The position numbers and the translations under genes were made by a program. A stretch of DNA of 64,000 bases. Source: Fibrobacter sp. UWB2. GTDB lineage: Bacteria; Fibrobacterota; Fibrobacteria; Fibrobacterales; Fibrobacteraceae. This document shows positions 3,145 to 56,118 of this stretch, in pieces. The DNA lies in the NCBI RefSeq assembly GCF_002210425.1, contig NZ_MWQK01000002.1, positions 558,001-622,000 on the forward strand, in the 5' to 3' direction. The notes under the pieces were generated by a model, which saw only the letters and a list, made by a program, of their open reading frames with translations, did not search any database and was not told the DNA's origin. Numbering within the stretch: the stretch's first letter is position 1; the number at the start of each line of letters is the position of its first letter.

Positions 3145-3198
3145 CCAAAGACTATTAACTAACAACCAATAACTAATGACTAATAACCAATGATAAAT
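3143..3198. repeat. Degenerate 7-bp tandem repeat array (locus 1)
   Basis: Eight successive heptamers fit RNCTAAT-like units without a register break: AGCCAAA, GACTATT, AACTAAC, AACCAAT, AACTAAT, GACTAAT, AACCAAT, GATAAAT. The array starts on the stop codon of the deacetylase gene. The same unit recurs at 10891, 53377 and 56041. Confidence 0.8.
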
Positions 3199-3233: not shown

Positions 3234-3261
3234 CTTTCGTCTTTCGTCTTTCGTCTTTCGT
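3234..3261. repeat. Perfect 4x heptamer repeat CTTTCGT
   Basis: Four identical, adjacent CTTTCGT units lie 35 bases after the AACTAAT-type array, with the same 7-bp period but a different sequence. The promoter-like box of the next gene begins 8 bases downstream. Confidence 0.85.
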
Positions 3262-3268
3262 CTAAAAA

Positions 3269-6769: not shown

Positions 6770-9700
6770 TTTGCTTTCTCCGTGGACTGCTTTTCGCTAG
6801 TATTTTCTTCCGAGGTCTTTCCCGTAGATTTTTTCTCGTCCGACTTCTTTTCGTTCTTCTGCTCTATAGATTCCGGGTCGTTAGGCTGCAACATCGCCTT
6901 GGGCGGGCGTACCGTTTCGCAGTGGCCAATGCCCAAGATGCAGGGGTTCCAGAACTTGTACGTATAGTTCATGCCGATGTTCTTTTCGACACGATGCTCG
7001 TTATTGCTTTCGGCACCCGTGTTGGACTGGTACTGTTTCGAAATCAGGAGGCCGTTAAGCGAGAGGGACGGAGAGAAATGGTTCTTGTGCGAGTATTCCT
7101 TGCCTTGGAATACAGGGAGCGTATAGGAGGCACCGAACTGGAGTGCTTGTGTCGATGTCTCGCTTTGTTCCTGGGTGTAGCCAAAAATCAGGCTCAAGTT
7201 CTTGACCCAGCGGTCAAGCGAAATCGGAACCTTGAAATAAGAGGAGTCCTTTTCGTTGCCGGAGTTGTCGAACAACATCACCTTCATGTCGATATCGCCG
7301 ATGTAGTCGCCACCAAGTGTCTTGTTGGCCGTAGAAGAGATGAACTTGCCAATCGCGCGGCCCGCAAGCTTGTTCCAGTCTGTCGAACCGTCCGATTCTG
7401 TAGCAACGCAGCCCAAGAAGATATTGCGGTATGTATCTGCAGCTGTCGCTTCTGTTCCGCAGTTGGAACTTGGATTTGGTTGCGGGTTTGTAATCGTTCC
7501 CTGAATGTCTAGGTTGATGGGGCAGGTTTCTTTTTCGTTTTCACTAGATTCTGTACAATAGGGGAGTTCCTGCGTGCTCGAAACGTCGATGATGCCGTGC
7601 TGCCACGGAACATCGTTCCAGGAAAGGCTGAACGTGTTCAGTTCAAATTCATAGAGGTCCTTGACGCCAATAAAGCCGTTGTCTGCATTGGTGACGTCAC
7701 CGCGCAAGAGCGGTCTTGTCGTCGTGCCGAGAACCCAAATATCAAGTGTCAGCGGGAATGTGGCGAACGGCGTGATGATTTCGACGGAGTCGCTCTGGGA
7801 ATCGCTTATATGGAACGACAGGTCGATGGGGCTCGATACAGAAATCTTGGCTTCGGTCTTTTCCTTGTTGCGGAGGTTTGCTATGGCATTGTTTACGAGC
7901 GACAAAAGCTTGTCGAGCGAGCTCGGGGTGATTTCGATGTCCAGGTCCTTCCTATAGACGAGCTTGTCTATGATGAAGTTGCCGCTCACGCTCTTGTTCT
8001 TGATTTGTCTGTCTTTCGTATGCGGGATATTGAGTGTGATATCGCTTTTTCCGGTGAGGTTTGCCGTACCGAACGTTTCGTCGTTAAACTTATACTGAAT
8101 CGATGGAATGTTTGCGACGAGAGACATCTGGTCTTCGGAATCTTCCAGATGGCTCGTGACGTTACGCAAGGTGACGATGTGGTTGTCGGTTTCGAGCGTG
8201 TAGCGTTCGGTGCTGATATCGATAGCTTCAAGTCTCGAAGTCTTCAAATCATAAAGCAAAGTTGCAAGTATCAGGTCGCCGCGGTCGTTCTGCGTCGAAA
8301 TCTCGTTGATGGCGAGCAAGCCTTCTTTAAGATCGCCTCTGACGCGGAGCGGGAAATCCATGGGAAGTGTCCCGTAACGGACGATGGTGGAGTCGGACCA
8401 AAGCGTTGCTGCAATTCCCGGCAGACCTTCGCGGAGCTTGGCCTGCACGTCTATCCTCATGTCGGTCTTTTCAATTTCAGCACGGGTTTCTGGGATGAGC
8501 CATGTACCGCCGAGCTTGATGGAACCTATGAAATCGAGATCGTTGTTGATTGAACCTGCCCCCTTGATAAAGCCACCATTGGGGCTATTGTAGGTCAGGT
8601 GGACCTGCCTTGTCGTGTCGAAAACGTCATCGACGACGATATTCGTGATGCCGGTCCACACGCCGTTCATAATATCGAAGTTGGTCAGCAGTTCAACCTT
8701 GTTCTTGTTGGCCGAAACATTCAGTTGCTTGAGGTTCAAAAGCTCCGGAGGAATGTTTGTAAAGCTCAAGTCCTTGAACTCGATGTTTCCAAGCAAGCCG
8801 GCTTCTTCGTTGAAAGAAATCTCGCCGTTGAAACTACCCGAAGCAAGAGTTGTATCGCCAAGCGGTTCCAAAAGAATCGGCAAGTTGAAGTCTTGTGCCG
8901 AGGCCCAGGAATGCAGAACCTGGATGGGGAGCATGGCGGTTGGCTTAAAGTCCGGGTTCGAATCGTTCGGCAAAACGAACGACGCTTCCATGGCGACCTT
9001 GTTGCTGTTGTGCGTGAATACCGCTGTATCGACAATTACAGTATCGCCAATTTCTCTAATCTTTGTGTGCCCGTGTACGATAAACGGCTCCACATTGCCG
9101 TCGATATCAAGCTCTGCTACGCCGACTCTGGAATCGAGATTGTAATCGATTGTACCTGTGACTGTACCCTTGAGCTTGTCGTTGAGCTCGATGTCCGAGA
9201 ACGGAATTGTTGAAATTTCGGCGTGGTCCGCCTGTGCCCAGACGAGGAGCGAATCACCGACATGCACAATGGTTTCTGCTGAGCCACCGTTCTTTTGCTT
9301 CAGGCGCCAGGAGGTGTGGAGCGTGGGCTCGTGGTAGTCGACATCGCCATTGATGGAAATTTCTTCGACAGGGGTGTAGATGGTTGCCTTCGGAAAATCG
9401 ATGTATTTACGGCCGAGGTCAAGCACTAGCTGCAGTCGTAGCGAGTCTGCCTTGAAGTGGTATGCGTTGATGATGGAATCAACCTTTAAGTAAGCGCGTA
9501 ACTTGTTGTTCTGGAAAGATCCGATAATCTTTGGGTTCTTTCCGATTTCGACGTTCCCTTTGACCCAGTCTAGCGCCCACGGTTCCATGGCGGAAAGGTT
9601 TGCCGCAAAGAACACCTTCAGGCTATCCTTCGTCTTGACGTGAGCCCTGACGACAGAGCCTTCGCGGGTTTCGATGGAGGCGTCTATGTCGTCGCCCGTT

Positions 9701-10890: not shown

Positions 10891-10932
10891 TTCTAGCAAC
10901 TAAAGACTAATAACTAGTATCTATTAACAAAA
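10891..10932. repeat. Degenerate 7-bp tandem repeat array (locus 2)
   Basis: Six heptamers in register: TTCTAGC, AACTAAA, GACTAAT, AACTAGT, ATCTATT, AACAAAA. They lie in the divergent tamB / lipoprotein intergenic region, immediately before the TATATTC box of the rightward gene. Confidence 0.7.
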
Positions 10933-10971: not shown

Positions 10972-13053
10972 ATGAAAAAAGCTTTGCTTGTGTTTTGTTC
11001 TTTCTGCGCCCTGGTTTTCTCGGGTTGCAATTCCATTGGAGACAAGGATACTCTCGTTGCCAGGGTGAATGGCGAACCGATTTTCAAGGAAGACTACGCC
11101 TTCATGATGCGTGTGGGGAACATCGTCCCGAATACGGAACAGATGAGAAAAGCCTCTAGCTCCCTTTTCAGCCGCAAGGCTCTTTATACGGTGGCGCTCC
11201 AGAAGAATCCTGAACTGAAGGAACAACTCGCGGCCCACAATGAGGCTCTCGAAAACTACCTCCTCACGTTCGTGTATCAGCGCCTCTATACGATGGACCG
11301 CCTGATGTACACCGACGATGAACTTGCCTTCTATTACGACAAGCACCGTGACCAGTTTGCCGATTCGCTTTCCTACATGAATCTTCGCGACAAGGTGGCC
11401 GATGCAAAGTATATCGAGTCCAATTACGATTCCCTGAAATCCTATGCTTTCTTGCACAGGAGCTTGGACGATTCTACGGGTGAAGTCAAGATTACATACG
11501 ACATCAAGGAACGTTTTGTCTCGGACCATCGCCAACGGATTGTTCGTGAAACGGGACCGGCTCTCCTGAAAAAGTACAACATTCAGGAAACTGAAATCCA
11601 GATGCCTTCTGCGGATGCCTATTACGAAAATCACAAGAACTTGTATATGACTCCGGGTGGCTTTGTGGTCTACCACGTGGAATCTGCGGACTCTGCTAAG
11701 TTGGCCAAACGCTTTAAGGGTAAAAAGATGGACCTCAAGGCTTTCATGAAGATTGCGTCCAAGTTTAGCGAAAACAAGGACACAAAGGCCGCTAAGGGCT
11801 TTGTCGGTAAGGTTGTTCATGGCCATCCGCTTCCGTATGGTATAGGCTTTGTCCCGAATATGTTTGTCGCTCTTGACACCTTGAAAGATGGAGCTATTTC
11901 CTCGGTGATCAAGTCTGAATCTACGGGCCGTTATCATGTGTTCTACCGCGAGTCCGTTGTTCAGCCGGAACAGAAACCGCTTGATCGCGTACGCAAGAGC
12001 ATTGAACATGATTTGGCGACAACCGCTAATTACGAACTCGATTCGAACTATGTGCTCGTCACGAAAAATGGCGAACCCGCTATCCGTGAAAAGGATGTCC
12101 TTGCTGTATACAATGATAATGGGATGATGGTCCGTTCTCGCAGAACTCATGACCAGGTCGTTAAATCCCTTGCTCTTCAGCTTGCTTTTGCTGCCGAAGC
12201 CCGCGAAGTCGGACTCGACCACACTTGGGAATATCGCGCCCTCAAGCGCCAGAGCGATGTCGACTACATCATCAAGATGTACAGGATGAAGGTCCTTAAC
12301 CACATCGTGGTTCCGGAAGACTCTCTCAAGGCCCTCTACGAACGTATGGGCAATCCGGCACACCCGACTTTGACGTATGAACAGTCCCGTTCTGAGCTCA
12401 GCGACTGGTTTGAAATCCCTGAAAATCTCATGAAGAGAACGTATTACTACGCCGAAGAAGACTACCTCCCGAAAACCTACGAAGAGGCTAAGAATCAGGT
12501 GTTTGAAACGGCTTACCTGGTGTTCCGTTCTGGCCGTTGGGACAAGGAAGTCGTGACCTCCTGGGGTACCGCCAAGGTGGATCTCTTTGCTGACAACATA
12601 ACGCTTTTGCCGCAGGAATGGTCTGTGGAATTTGCCATGAAGTCTGCTGATTCTCTTTATACGCAGGCCAAGAGCCTCGAAAAGGCTTACCTAGCCTGGT
12701 CTGGAATTCGTGAACGCTATGTGGATATCGATTCTGTGGCGAAGAAGGCTACGTTCGAACTTGCCCATGTCTATAGCGATAGGGAAGAGTACGACAAGGC
12801 CCAGCGCGAATACAGGGCTTTCTACCGCACATGGCCGGATTCTCCGGATGCTGAAAAGGCTATGTTCAGTCGCGGCTTCATTCTGAACGAGAATTTGCAC
12901 AAGGATGCTGAAGCGCTCAAGGTCTTTGAAGAATTCAAGAAGCTCTACCCGAAGAGCGACCTTACCGAATCTGTCGATTGGCTTGTCCAGAACATCAAGA
13001 GCAACGGCAAACTCGCCGATGATTTGATGAAGAAAATCGAAGCGGAAGAGTAA
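10972..13053 (+). CDS. Parvulin/SurA-like peptidyl-prolyl isomerase lipoprotein with C-terminal TPR
   Basis: The ATG at 10972 is preferred over an earlier in-frame start at 10936, because GAGGA sits just before it and a lipoprotein signal follows at once (MKKALLVF ... FSGCNS, lipidated Cys about residue 20). A SurA-N-like segment follows (LVARVNGEPIFKEDY), then a parvulin rotamase-like domain at about 210-310 (SKFSENKDTKAAKGF, IGFVPNMFVAL, SESTGRYHVFYR). The final ~150 residues form TPR-like helices (ATFELAHVYSDREEYDKAQ, AEKAMFSRGFILNENL). The likely role is folding or escort of outer membrane proteins in the periplasm, which suits its position across from tamBA. The joined isomerase and TPR arrangement is unlike E. 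coli SurA. Confidence 0.8.
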   Translation: MKKALLVFCSFCALVFSGCNSIGDKDTLVARVNGEPIFKEDYAFMMRVGNIVPNTEQMRKASSSLFSRKALYTVALQKNPELKEQLAAHNEALENYLLTFVYQRLYTMDRLMYTDDELAFYYDKHRDQFADSLSYMNLRDKVADAKYIESNYDSLKSYAFLHRSLDDSTGEVKITYDIKERFVSDHRQRIVRETGPALLKKYNIQETEIQMPSADAYYENHKNLYMTPGGFVVYHVESADSAKLAKRFKGKKMDLKAFMKIASKFSENKDTKAAKGFVGKVVHGHPLPYGIGFVPNMFVALDTLKDGAISSVIKSESTGRYHVFYRESVVQPEQKPLDRVRKSIEHDLATTANYELDSNYVLVTKNGEPAIREKDVLAVYNDNGMMVRSRRTHDQVVKSLALQLAFAAEAREVGLDHTWEYRALKRQSDVDYIIKMYRMKVLNHIVVPEDSLKALYERMGNPAHPTLTYEQSRSELSDWFEIPENLMKRTYYYAEEDYLPKTYEEAKNQVFETAYLVFRSGRWDKEVVTSWGTAKVDLFADNITLLPQEWSVEFAMKSADSLYTQAKSLEKAYLAWSGIRERYVDIDSVAKKATFELAHVYSDREEYDKAQREYRAFYRTWPDSPDAEKAMFSRGFILNENLHKDAEALKVFEEFKKLYPKSDLTESVDWLVQNIKSNGKLADDLMKKIEAEE

Positions 13054-33936: not shown

Positions 33937-34204
33937 GATGACCTCATATATAGCGAGAATACCGCACCTTTTATTCAAAAGGGTACAATATCCCCAAATT
34001 TTTTTTCATGGGGGCGTTAAAAAAGAATTTTATGGAAATTAAATTTTAAAAATGAAATTTAGTGTATGCATGACTTTTGCATCACGTCCCAAATATAGTA
34101 AAAATGACTTTTTTTGTCAAGAGTAAAAATGTGAGACAATCATTCGGATAATAGTTTACAATTGCAATATATAAAACGATATTAAAATAAAAGAGGTGAA
34201 TTGT

Positions 34205-53328: not shown

Positions 53329-53360
53329 TGTCATCCCCGCCTCCGAGCGGGGATCTCCTA
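53329..53360. repeat. TGTCA hairpin repeat, copy C
   Basis: TGTCAT, CCCCGC / GCGGGG stem around CTCCGA, then ATCTCCTA and a T run. It matches copy D at 41869 with a compensating stem change. It follows the pilB stop and could also end transcription. Confidence 0.75.
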
Positions 53361-53376: not shown

Positions 53377-53453
53377 AACTAATAACTAATGACCATTGAC
53401 CAATAACCATTGGCTATTTCCTAATGCCTAACCCCTAAAACCTACAACCTATT
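53377..53453. repeat. Degenerate 7-bp tandem repeat array (locus 3, 11 units)
   Basis: Eleven uninterrupted heptamers: AACTAAT, AACTAAT, GACCATT, GACCAAT, AACCATT, GGCTATT, TCCTAAT, GCCTAAC, CCCTAAA, ACCTACA, ACCTATT. It ends four bases before the TATATTG box of the helicase gene. Confidence 0.85.
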
Positions 53454-53456
53454 TTC

Positions 53457-53463
53457 TATATTG
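53457..53463 (+). promoter_or_regulatory. Promoter-like box TATATTG before uvrD
   Basis: The box lies 36 bases before the ATG at 53493, with TAGGAG between them. It directly follows the heptamer array. Confidence 0.4.
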
Positions 53464-53492: not shown

Positions 53493-56024
53493 ATGGACGA
53501 TTTTGTAGAATGCAATGTTGTTGATGATAGTGTTTTAGATAAAGAGTTGAACCCGGAACAGGCCGCTGCCGCGAAGAAAATTAACGGCCCGATGCTGATT
53601 TTGGCCGGTGCAGGTTCAGGAAAGACGCGTTGCATTACTTACAAGATTGCTCATCTGGTTTCGTACCACAATATCGATTCCAATCGCGTGCTTGCGGTGA
53701 CCTTTACGAACAAGGCCGCTCGCGAAATGAAGGACCGTATCCAGAAGCTTTTGAATTGCCGTAAGCCGTTCACGTGGATGGGCACGTTCCACTCCGTTTG
53801 CCTTAAGCTTTTGAAGCTCTGCTTGGCGAAAGAATCCGTAATCAAGGCGCTTGGCGGCAAGTGGTTTGATGCAAACTTTTCCATTTACGATGACGACGAC
53901 CAGAAACGCATCCTCAAGGAAATCTTGAAGGACGATCTTGGCGATGATTACGATGTAAATGAGCTGAAGAAGGTCCATAGCGCGATTTCCCGTTTCAAGA
54001 ATACGGTCTTGTACAAGAATGACAAGGCTGTCTTGCAGACGCCGGATGTGGCGGCTTTGAACGCTGAATTTGCCGATGAAGAACGCAAGGCCCGCTATTA
54101 TGCGGCTTACCAGAAAAAGCTTGCGGAATCGAACGCGATGGACTTCGACGACCTGCTGTTCAATACGGTTCGCATGTTGCAGATGGTCCCGAATTTGGCG
54201 GAACAGCTGAGAATGCGTTTCCAGTACGTTGTCGTGGACGAATACCAGGATACGAACGACGTCCAGTATGAACTTTTGAAGTTGCTCATCAACAGGGATA
54301 CGAAAAACGTAACGGTGGTGGGCGATGACGACCAGAGTATTTACGGTTGGCGTGGCGCAAACATCAAGATTATCCGTAACTTCCACCGCGATTTTGCTCC
54401 GGTGACGATTGTCAAGCTCGAACGCAATTACCGCTCGACCGCGAACATCGTTAAAGGCGCTGGTTCTGTGATTGCGCATAACGTCCGCCCTGCCGAAATG
54501 CAGAAGAACGTGTTCTCCAAAGAAGAAGCGGGCGAGCTTATTCACGTGCGCTATTTTGAAGATGACCGTGCCGAAGCATCGAACATTGCAAAGACGGTGG
54601 CTCAGGCGGGTCCTGATTTTTATGCCAAGACGGCAATTTTCTACCGCACGAACGCGCAGTCCCGAGTGCTTGAAAAGGCGCTCAACGATTTGCGCATCCC
54701 GTCGGTGATTTTTGGCGGTACAAGATTCTGGGACCGCAAGGAAATCAAGGATGTACTTGCCTACTTGCGCGTGCTCGCTAACGAAAAAGACGATGCCGCT
54801 TACTTGCGTGTGATTAACACTCCGCCGCGTGCCATCGGCAAGACTACAGTCGAAGGCGTGCTCGCCAAGGTGAAAGCGGGCGAGGGTTCGTTCTGGGACA
54901 ATTTATTGGCCGAGGCGAACGGCACGGGGCGCGGCGCTCCGAAGCTTAAGGTTTTTACGGACCTTGTGACGAACTGGAAGAACATGATGACTTCTGGCGA
55001 GTATCCGCTTCCGATTCTTGCTGAACATATCATCAACGATACGGGCTATAAGGACTTCTTGCGCAAGGAAGACGAAGTCACTGCCGACGAACGAATTGCG
55101 AACTTGGACGAAATGATTAACGCTATCCGTGAATTTGACGAAGAACATCCGGGCGCAACGCTCGATGCGTTCTTGCAGGATATTTCGCTTTTGACGGATG
55201 GCGACAAGAAGGTCGATACGTCGAAGGGCCTTGTGACGCTCATGACGATTCACATGGCAAAGGGCTTGGAATTCAATACGGTTCATTTGGCGGGTTGCGA
55301 TGACGAAATCTTCCCGCTTGTGCGTGGAACTTCTATGCTCTCGATGGCCGAAATCAACGAGCAGATGGAAGAAGAACGCCGTTTGTTCTATGTGGGCTGT
55401 ACCCGTGCCGAAAAGAAACTTTATCTGTACCATGCGGAACGCAGATTCTTCCAGGGGAATATCCGTCCGTTTGCGCCGTCGCGCTTCCTAAAGGAATTGG
55501 ATCCGTCCGTTGTCGACTTTACGCCGTGCTTGAATACACGTCCGTCTGTTCCTGATTTTGTCGGCAATACGCGCTCCAAGCCTTCTTATGGTTCTTACGG
55601 CTCGTCGAACTATGGCTCTCGTCCGTCCTATGGCAATTCGGGCACGGGCAATTCCTATGGAAACCGCTCGTTTGGCGGTGCCTCCCACGGCAGTAGCTTT
55701 GGCGGATCCCGTAGCGGTTTTGGCGGGTCTTCGTTTGGTTCTCGCCCGGCACCTGTTCCGGCGTCCATCAAGAAGAACGATAAGCACATTGTTTACCGCA
55801 ATCCGGTGAAGGTTGTAAAGGCTCCTGCTCCGTCCGGCCCGACTATCGAGTACGATAATCCGTACCACGAGGGTGCACGCGTTCGCCATTCCAGGTATGG
55901 AACGGGCGTGATTATGAAGGCTTATGGTAATGGCGACAACGCTCGTGTCGATGTGCGCTTCGACCGCGAGAACATGAACCGCACCATCATCCTCAAATAC
56001 GCTGCATTGGAAGTGATTGGATAG
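53493..56024 (+). CDS. uvrD: UvrD/PcrA-type DNA helicase with Gly/Ser/Tyr-rich insert
   Basis: An 843-residue SF1A helicase. Motifs in order: Q-motif and Walker A AGAGSGKTR (~35), Walker B DEYQDTNDVQYEL, DDDQSIYGWRGA, RNYRST, MTIHMAKGLEFNTVHLAGCD and VGCTRAEKKLYLYHA. It unwinds DNA in repair or replication. At about residues 692-750 lies a low-complexity tract of (S/G/N)-(Y/F)-G units (SYGSYGSSNYGSRPSYG, SFGGSRSGFGG). After it a PcrA-like C-terminal Tudor-type domain (YHEGARVRHSRYGTGVI) closes the protein. The tract is not part of the usual family. A UvrD/PcrA role is strong; choosing between the two is not possible. Confidence 0.92.
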   Translation: MDDFVECNVVDDSVLDKELNPEQAAAAKKINGPMLILAGAGSGKTRCITYKIAHLVSYHNIDSNRVLAVTFTNKAAREMKDRIQKLLNCRKPFTWMGTFHSVCLKLLKLCLAKESVIKALGGKWFDANFSIYDDDDQKRILKEILKDDLGDDYDVNELKKVHSAISRFKNTVLYKNDKAVLQTPDVAALNAEFADEERKARYYAAYQKKLAESNAMDFDDLLFNTVRMLQMVPNLAEQLRMRFQYVVVDEYQDTNDVQYELLKLLINRDTKNVTVVGDDDQSIYGWRGANIKIIRNFHRDFAPVTIVKLERNYRSTANIVKGAGSVIAHNVRPAEMQKNVFSKEEAGELIHVRYFEDDRAEASNIAKTVAQAGPDFYAKTAIFYRTNAQSRVLEKALNDLRIPSVIFGGTRFWDRKEIKDVLAYLRVLANEKDDAAYLRVINTPPRAIGKTTVEGVLAKVKAGEGSFWDNLLAEANGTGRGAPKLKVFTDLVTNWKNMMTSGEYPLPILAEHIINDTGYKDFLRKEDEVTADERIANLDEMINAIREFDEEHPGATLDAFLQDISLLTDGDKKVDTSKGLVTLMTIHMAKGLEFNTVHLAGCDDEIFPLVRGTSMLSMAEINEQMEEERRLFYVGCTRAEKKLYLYHAERRFFQGNIRPFAPSRFLKELDPSVVDFTPCLNTRPSVPDFVGNTRSKPSYGSYGSSNYGSRPSYGNSGTGNSYGNRSFGGASHGSSFGGSRSGFGGSSFGSRPAPVPASIKKNDKHIVYRNPVKVVKAPAPSGPTIEYDNPYHEGARVRHSRYGTGVIMKAYGNGDNARVDVRFDRENMNRTIILKYAALEVIG

Positions 56025-56040
56025 CGGCTCCGCTGCAGTT

Positions 56041-56118
56041 ACTAGTTAATAGTTGGTGGTTATTAGAATTTTTAATAAAAATCATCTAGTAACTAGTAAC
56101 TCATAACTAGGAACTCTT
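56041..56118. repeat. Heptamer repeat array in two opposite orientations (locus 4)
   Basis: Left arm: ACTAGTT, AATAGTT, GGTGGTT, ATTAGAA (reverse orientation, 56041-56068). Right arm: ATCTAGT, AACTAGT, AACTCAT, AACTAGG, AACTCTT (forward, 56084-56118). About 15 bases separate the arms, so a hairpin is possible. Confidence 0.75.

Follow-up and report, generated by a model that had tools for sequence, protein, structure and literature searches.

Period-seven repeat arrays between Fibrobacter genes are probably the arms of very small dispersed inverted-repeat elements

Introduction

What does a run of about 12 imperfect CYAWTRA-like heptamers, all in a single register, represent at the promoter of a uvrD-type gene in Fibrobacter, a rumen genus? 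The array occupies positions 53377..53462 (+) of the window, i.e. the whole 64-kb stretch of DNA analysed here (contig C2, 558001-622000, of a 3.53 Mb assembly, genome G000). It continues into a predicted promoter element of the uvrD-type gene, the box CTATATT (53456..53462, +), which lies in register with the heptamers. The genes around the array encode a T2SSE-type ATPase, a UvrD helicase and GatC (Pfam), and within the window Rfam returned nothing and ARAGORN no tRNA. Heptamer repeats have been noted for decades in scattered bacteria without an accepted function, and both heptamers and inverted heptamer pairs are already known outside Fibrobacter. For Fibrobacter itself, we found no title or abstract describing a heptamer or inverted-element family, in a search whose coverage excluded most subscription journals.

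Results

Period-seven arrays recur across Fibrobacterota

An earlier note on this DNA had proposed a family of period-7 arrays common to several intergenic loci, which should exceed shuffled sequence and recur elsewhere. When all spacers were analysed together by global autocorrelation, period 7 stood out only weakly, and local period scores were therefore used instead. In 464 kb of the same contig (maximal-segment score of at least 13), period 7 yielded 15 segments, 14 of them intergenic, compared with 0-2 segments each at periods 4, 5, 8, 10, 11 and 13 and none in an order-2 Markov control subjected to the same scan. Periods 14 and 21 were harmonics of 7, and multiples of 3 fell mostly inside genes. 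The period specificity and the empty control rule out chance as the source of the arrays. A second sample of the same genome (400 kb) held seven period-7 segments, three of them intergenic by a first gene mask, whilst the relative G004 was far richer (55 segments per 500 kb, 46 intergenic) and showed the same preference for period 7 and its multiples. The pattern CYAWTRRCYAWTRRCYAWT matched 32 times in the genome of origin and its reversed control not once. Together with the period-7 signal in relatives, this bore out the expected recurrence.

Amongst 35 Fibrobacterota loci, 25 period-7 windows with differing unit sequences were detected, against none at periods 5, 8, 11, 13, 16 and 17 and 2, 2 and 1 at periods 10, 19 and 20. 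Loci from outside the phylum (521 kb) held two period-7 segments, not above other periods; period-7 arrays are not a general bacterial background. Over Fibrobacter the units vary (CTAATGA, CTAGTAA, CTTCCTA, CTCTCGT, CTCATAA, CCTAACC, GAATTAT and others) and the period stays at seven, so that patterns built on a single flavour match just part of the genus; the CYAWTRR pattern occurs in 15/60 genomes of the phylum. In most units an anchor, N(A/T)CT or NACC, precedes three less constrained bases, and flavours within single arrays grade into one another.

Within the window, arrays were confirmed at five places, and the array at 53377 keeps its register as first described. A CYAWTRA-flavour array (3151..3198, +) starts 6 bp past a stop codon, and a GTCTNNN-flavour array of CTTTCGT x4.3 (3234..3263, +) has the next start codon 34 bp downstream; read on the opposite strand, CTTTCGT becomes ACGAAAG, an ACNNNNN heptamer resembling other units. 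A short mixed-flavour array (10899..10926, +) precedes the gene at 10972. The array reported at 56041 exists, but comprises two oppositely oriented arrays (56037-56066, minus; 56086-56115, plus) rather than one. An AT-rich period-14 array of another flavour, TTAAAAATGAAATT (twice seven), was also seen in the window (34017-34060) and at L034:9520.

Arrays pair around a short core with one-way polarity

Many of the arrays flank a short core as a pair of facing arms, with constant polarity. For the AGTT flavour, AGTTACTAG-N10-60-CTAGTAACT gave 317 matches in 14/41 genus genomes, overlapping matches within one element being counted separately in all such pattern searches, and the pair was absent from the other 27/41. 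The order of the AGTT arms was the same in 300 matches against 0 for the opposite order (11 genomes). The GTCATTRG flavour gave 100 versus 0 (9 genomes), the opposite-order pattern being somewhat stricter. For the GGAAGTAG flavour, paired in 11/41 genus genomes, the figures were 79 versus 2 (41 genomes), and the two opposite-order matches, in G001 and G006, were near-identical in sequence.

A pattern-independent survey of G000 and G004 (1.364 Mb) gave the same polarity. The survey counted 106 arrays, distributed over 84 intergenic regions, with orientation assigned by CT versus AG counts (6/106 undecided). Neighbouring arrays within a region were ordered -+ in 19 cases, ++ in 2, -- in 1 and +- in none. 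At the threshold used, 63/84 array-bearing regions held one array only, and such solo arrays pointed to the nearer gene edge in 49 cases versus 8 (p=3e-8), with genes called by a simple script of our own.

Most often the element is directional and ~80 bp long, with an arm of four heptamers (T1), a core of 19-21 nt and a second arm of four heptamers (T2). Read one way, the AGTT element is AGTTYNRAGTTYNRAGTTACTAGTTACTAG, the core of 19-21 nt, then CTAGTAACTNNTAACTATTAACTAGTAACT; core length fell within this range in 34/42 elements, and exactly four units were present in 53/84 arms. Arm types were T1/T2 in 26 of 41 AGTT elements, T1-T1 in one, T2-T2 in none and unclear in 14, elements with an arm cut at the locus end being left out. 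The GGAAGTAG flavour has its own two arm types, GGAAGTAGGAAG (a) and GGAAGTAGACAG (b); amongst the matches listed, taken as 53 elements with one entry each, 47 paired a with b, two were bb, none aa and four unclear. These two distinct arm types give the element a direction.

The anchor bases agree between the two arms, whilst the middle triplet matches in 0, 7 and 0% at its three positions. Variable triplets of arms from one element matched in 28% and those of arms from different elements in 30%, and element-specific covariation of the arms was accordingly rejected; the first nine bases of the AGTT arms are set by the search pattern and are uninformative here. The arms act like a pair of fixed end sequences rather than a stem maintained by compensatory change.

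Positions 56037-56115 of the window are one complete two-armed element. Its left, T1-like arm (56037..56066, -; four heptamers, AGTTACTAGTTAATAGTTGGTGGTTATTAG) and right, T2 arm (56086..56115, +; four heptamers, CTAGTAACTAGTAACTCATAACTAGGAACT) enclose a 19-nt, unstranded core (56067..56085), and the element folds at -31.2 compared with -14.3 (sd 3.7) for shuffles. At its outer end lies a mini-hairpin, GCGGC-TCC-GCTGC with one G-T pair (56024..56036, +), which shares one base, the last, with the TAG stop of the uvrD-type gene. The arrays at 3151 and 10899 are best read as orphan arms. A facing arm was also looked for around 53377..53462 and none was detected; taking this array for an orphan arm is the least secure step of our interpretation.

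Cores and hairpins are shared between flavours

The cores could be sorted into AGAATTTCATATTAAGAATT-like and AAATGTTCTTATTGCAATCT-like sets and a set with the hairpin TTATAATCGCGGC-NNN-GCCGCC. In 29 cores picked by hand for their hairpin, from which listed elements with no hairpin or a broken one were excluded, pairing was 95.9% and 13 cells had changed on both sides, a number reached in 0/500 shuffles. The hairpin core TTATAATCGCGGCNNNGCCGCC is found in GTCATT elements and, amongst the matches listed, in 8/53 GGAAGTAG elements, where its direction relative to arms a and b was identical in 8/8. The same core within two arm flavours indicates that arms and core are separable modules. Exact hairpins with a 5 bp stem and a 3 nt loop followed 18/84 AGTT arms. 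Spacers held 128 such 5-3-5 hairpins (30 expected), of which 14 lay near arrays (4% expected); the hairpin thus also occurs away from arrays. A third kind of core was seen in the AGTT pairs of G012, G021 and G025, longer and holding the palindrome CAAGAAGCTTCTTG.

Arrays crowd gene edges

Stop codons lie very near the arrays, at median distances of about 1 and 7 bp, and starts some 25-43 bp away. In 21 cases a facing array overlapped or touched the gene end (-14 to +4), and the stop codon was TAG in 12 of these 21 genes compared with 289/1108 overall (p=0.004); TAG also ended 12/18 genes with an array at 5-40 bp. The heptamer contains TAG on that strand, so that in many cases the stop apparently derives from the element. 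The counts agree with the earlier placing of arrays between genes and near promoter boxes or stop codons. Arrays occurred in 25/181 divergent, 44/380 co-directional and 15/132 convergent spacers.

The CTATATT box and the sequence after it are conserved across the orthologous loci L032-L036, and the array beside it is not. L034 retains the promoter-side units of array 53377 with a different far end, L043 and L046 carry other flavours, and L035 has no array at all, a stop codon lying 3 bp from the box (CTATATTGC). The L035 promoter rules out one conserved promoter element, and makes a fixed promoter spacer unlikely, the earlier note having considered spacing elements.

Elements turn over between syntenic relatives

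Within G018, 18 elements shared a mean pairwise identity of 0.78, against 0.65 when shuffled and 0.58 for both flanks. Long blocks of the G000 and G004 genomes are syntenic, at roughly 84-96% identity, and within them elements present in one genome are absent or truncated in the other. Remnants included a truncated arm in G000 where the G004 arm is longer, and a single G000 arm at a site with a full element in G004. Two absences resemble deletions in G000. Comparison of G000 with G004 revealed no heptamer element cleanly inserted with a target duplication, the intergenic stretches compared being mostly replaced, and inspection by eye of the G000/G004 junctions and the printed element flanks likewise showed no target duplication. 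The number of units differs amongst orthologs. At the site of the window element, the uvrD-gatC spacer, arrays or pairs of other flavours occupy L037, L041, L042, L044, L057 and L060.

Other spacer sequence was seen to change as well. Between G000_C2 and G004_C1, whose coding DNA is ~90% identical, spacers between conserved genes were replaced wholesale, sometimes including promoters. A palindrome, GTCATCCCCGCC...GGGGATCTCC (53330..53358, unstranded), a distinct small intergenic repeat, adjoins array 53377. It belongs to a second palindrome population, GTCATCC...GGATGAC / ACTGGATCC, also seen at several G004_C1 sites, and the genomes G000 and G004 differ in which sites carry palindromes of this GTCAT kind. 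In G004, one copy forms a 105 bp insertion that is almost clean and may have an ATTRAT duplication.

Discussion

We consider it probable, though well short of certain, that the arrays are arms, paired or orphaned, of very small non-coding inverted-repeat elements dispersed between Fibrobacter genes and built as heptamer arm A, a core of ~20-35 nt and heptamer arm B. Their dispersal, direction, fixed length and shared cores suggest that the elements spread as units, either through an enzyme acting in trans or by recombination. They would settle between stop codons and promoters, where harm is least, and later loss of an arm by deletion would leave solo arrays such as that at 53377. The heptamers would most likely serve as repeated end sites for the spreading machinery, with the unit drifting and the period and anchor bases retained. 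Several observations count against this reading. Neither an autonomous copy nor an enzyme was found (Y1_Tnp and RVT_1 were examined), and the grading of flavours within arrays suits local mutation better than discrete families. The want of a clean insertion between G000 and G004, the two absences that resemble deletions in G000, the prevalence of solo arrays (63/84 regions), the genomes lacking AGTT pairs (27/41) and the missing covariation of the arms also stand against it.

The most substantial alternative is that the pairs are RNA or DNA structures selected at gene ends, such as insulators, 3' end or RNase processing sites, or REP/BIME-like sequences, answering a recurring need rather than reflecting mobility. 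The folding of the window element, the covarying core hairpin, the greater proximity of arms to stops than to starts and the pairs of different flavours that occupy the uvrD-gatC spacer in several species all speak for such structures. However, arrays are also carried by 25/181 divergent spacers, where 3' ends do not exist, many orthologs have no element, no T-run was seen after the stem of the window element, and the second triplet of T1 and T2 is systematically mismatched (0 to 7% match) with no covariation, and we regard selection at gene ends as unlikely. Ordinary replication slippage with a 7-nt preference, plus some inverted duplication, would suit the persistence of period 7 whatever the unit sequence, the variable unit number of orthologs and some long homogeneous arrays (AGAACTG in L056, CTAATGA in G004). 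Yet it accounts for neither the one-way polarity, the two arm types, the conserved cores nor the four-unit arms. Like long simple sequence repeats, the arrays show a tandem excess of 7-nt units, but they have a preferred pairing and one polarity. The slippage-prone DNA entertained in the earlier note does not explain these features, and slippage appears improbable.

Could the arrays instead be predicted binding sites for a heptad-reading regulator or nucleoid protein? The omega protein of plasmid pSM19035, of the ribbon-helix-helix kind, recognises heptads, and by analogy a repeated recognition site would resemble the invariant anchors and variable triplets seen here, many arrays lying directly before promoters. 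Anchors nevertheless differ amongst flavours in one genome (AACT, GACT/GACC, TACT, GTCT), arrays lie no less close to stops than to starts, and relatives lack an array at the same promoter; such a protein is thus a very improbable explanation. Elements of the REPIN type, moved by a RAYT (Y1 tyrosine transposase), would share the inverted doublets, short spacer, high copy number and intergenic location. Y1_Tnp (PF01797) is, however, absent from G000, G018 and G061 (the last only 69% complete), and occurs in 6/14 genomes with AGTT pairs and 6/27 without, with no overall association. With the transposase missing from the genome of origin and from the richest genomes, we rejected this explanation as extremely improbable.

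Dispersed inverted-repeat elements, the reading we prefer, recall several known systems. Like MITEs, they are short, non-coding, dispersed and present in many copies with imperfect terminal inverted repeats; neither a parent transposon nor a target duplication has been seen so far. Nostoc reportedly carries small dispersed repeats (SDR), very small hairpins with compensatory changes that often sit inside tandem heptamers, as Elhai et al. are said to have described in 2008. The mini-hairpin cores found here, with compensatory changes (13 cells in the 29 hand-picked cores), resemble them, although the phylum is another and the likeness is one of described features. REPIN halves are imperfect palindromes with a GTAG-type foot. 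REPINs comprise short inverted doublets scattered between genes (Bertels and Rainey 2011, PMC3116915), but Fibrobacter arms are series of heptamers and the richest genomes have no Y1 transposase. Xanthomonas and Nostoc carry GGGNATC repeats (Rehm et al. 2015, PMC4692102); those of Xanthomonas form four-unit GGGAATC arrays, and inverted pairs number 70 in one of its genomes and 75 in another. Like ours, GGGNATC repeats are 7-nt, mostly intergenic, typically of four units, paired in inverted orientation and near a neighbouring gene. They differ in being G-rich, quadruplex-forming and of one unit sequence, with few pairs in Nostoc, and in the accessible part of that paper two arm types, a conserved core and a core hairpin were not met, these being Fibrobacter features (PMC4692102). 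The TAACTGA heptamers of Beggiatoaceae, Cyanobacteria and Bacteroidetes (MacGregor 2015, PMC4679880) are likewise intergenic, with an AACT anchor and many sets per genome. In contrast, as far as the accessible part of that account extends, TAACTGA is one fixed unit, with 169 sets of direct repeats and a single indirect one, mostly located immediately ahead of starts and with no inverted plan (PMC4679880). The same source relates that Mrazek and colleagues proposed slippage for long simple repeats (PMC4679880). A long near-homogeneous GAGAACT array, unlike the four-unit arms, was seen in L056 (F. intestinalis ATCC 43854, ~216-355).

If the arrays are arms of one-way, two-ended elements, a repeat curiosity becomes a testable question, namely what copies them and why the step is seven. 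The elements would account for part of the rapid spacer replacement between syntenic Fibrobacter species, and could also provide stop codons and the surroundings of promoters there. Only tentatively do we extend this to a modular class of mobile elements with ends defined by period and polarity and not by one fixed sequence, in which pairs from unrelated phyla (Xanthomonas, L148 and perhaps cyanobacteria) might share a mechanism stepping in 7 nt. The L148 pair (8467-8560) is an inverted pair of a GC-rich heptamer, GTCGGGC ... GCCCGAC, in a GC-rich Fibrobacterota genome from another taxonomic family of the bacterial class to which Fibrobacter belongs.

A reverse transcriptase was rejected as partner of the elements: RVT_1 occurs in 5/14 genomes with AGTT pairs versus 7/27 without, and is absent from G000, G001 and G004. 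The two AGTT-richest genomes do carry a reverse transcriptase, in a 411 aa open frame (G018:C28:23450-24139 and G061:C8:26785-27474).
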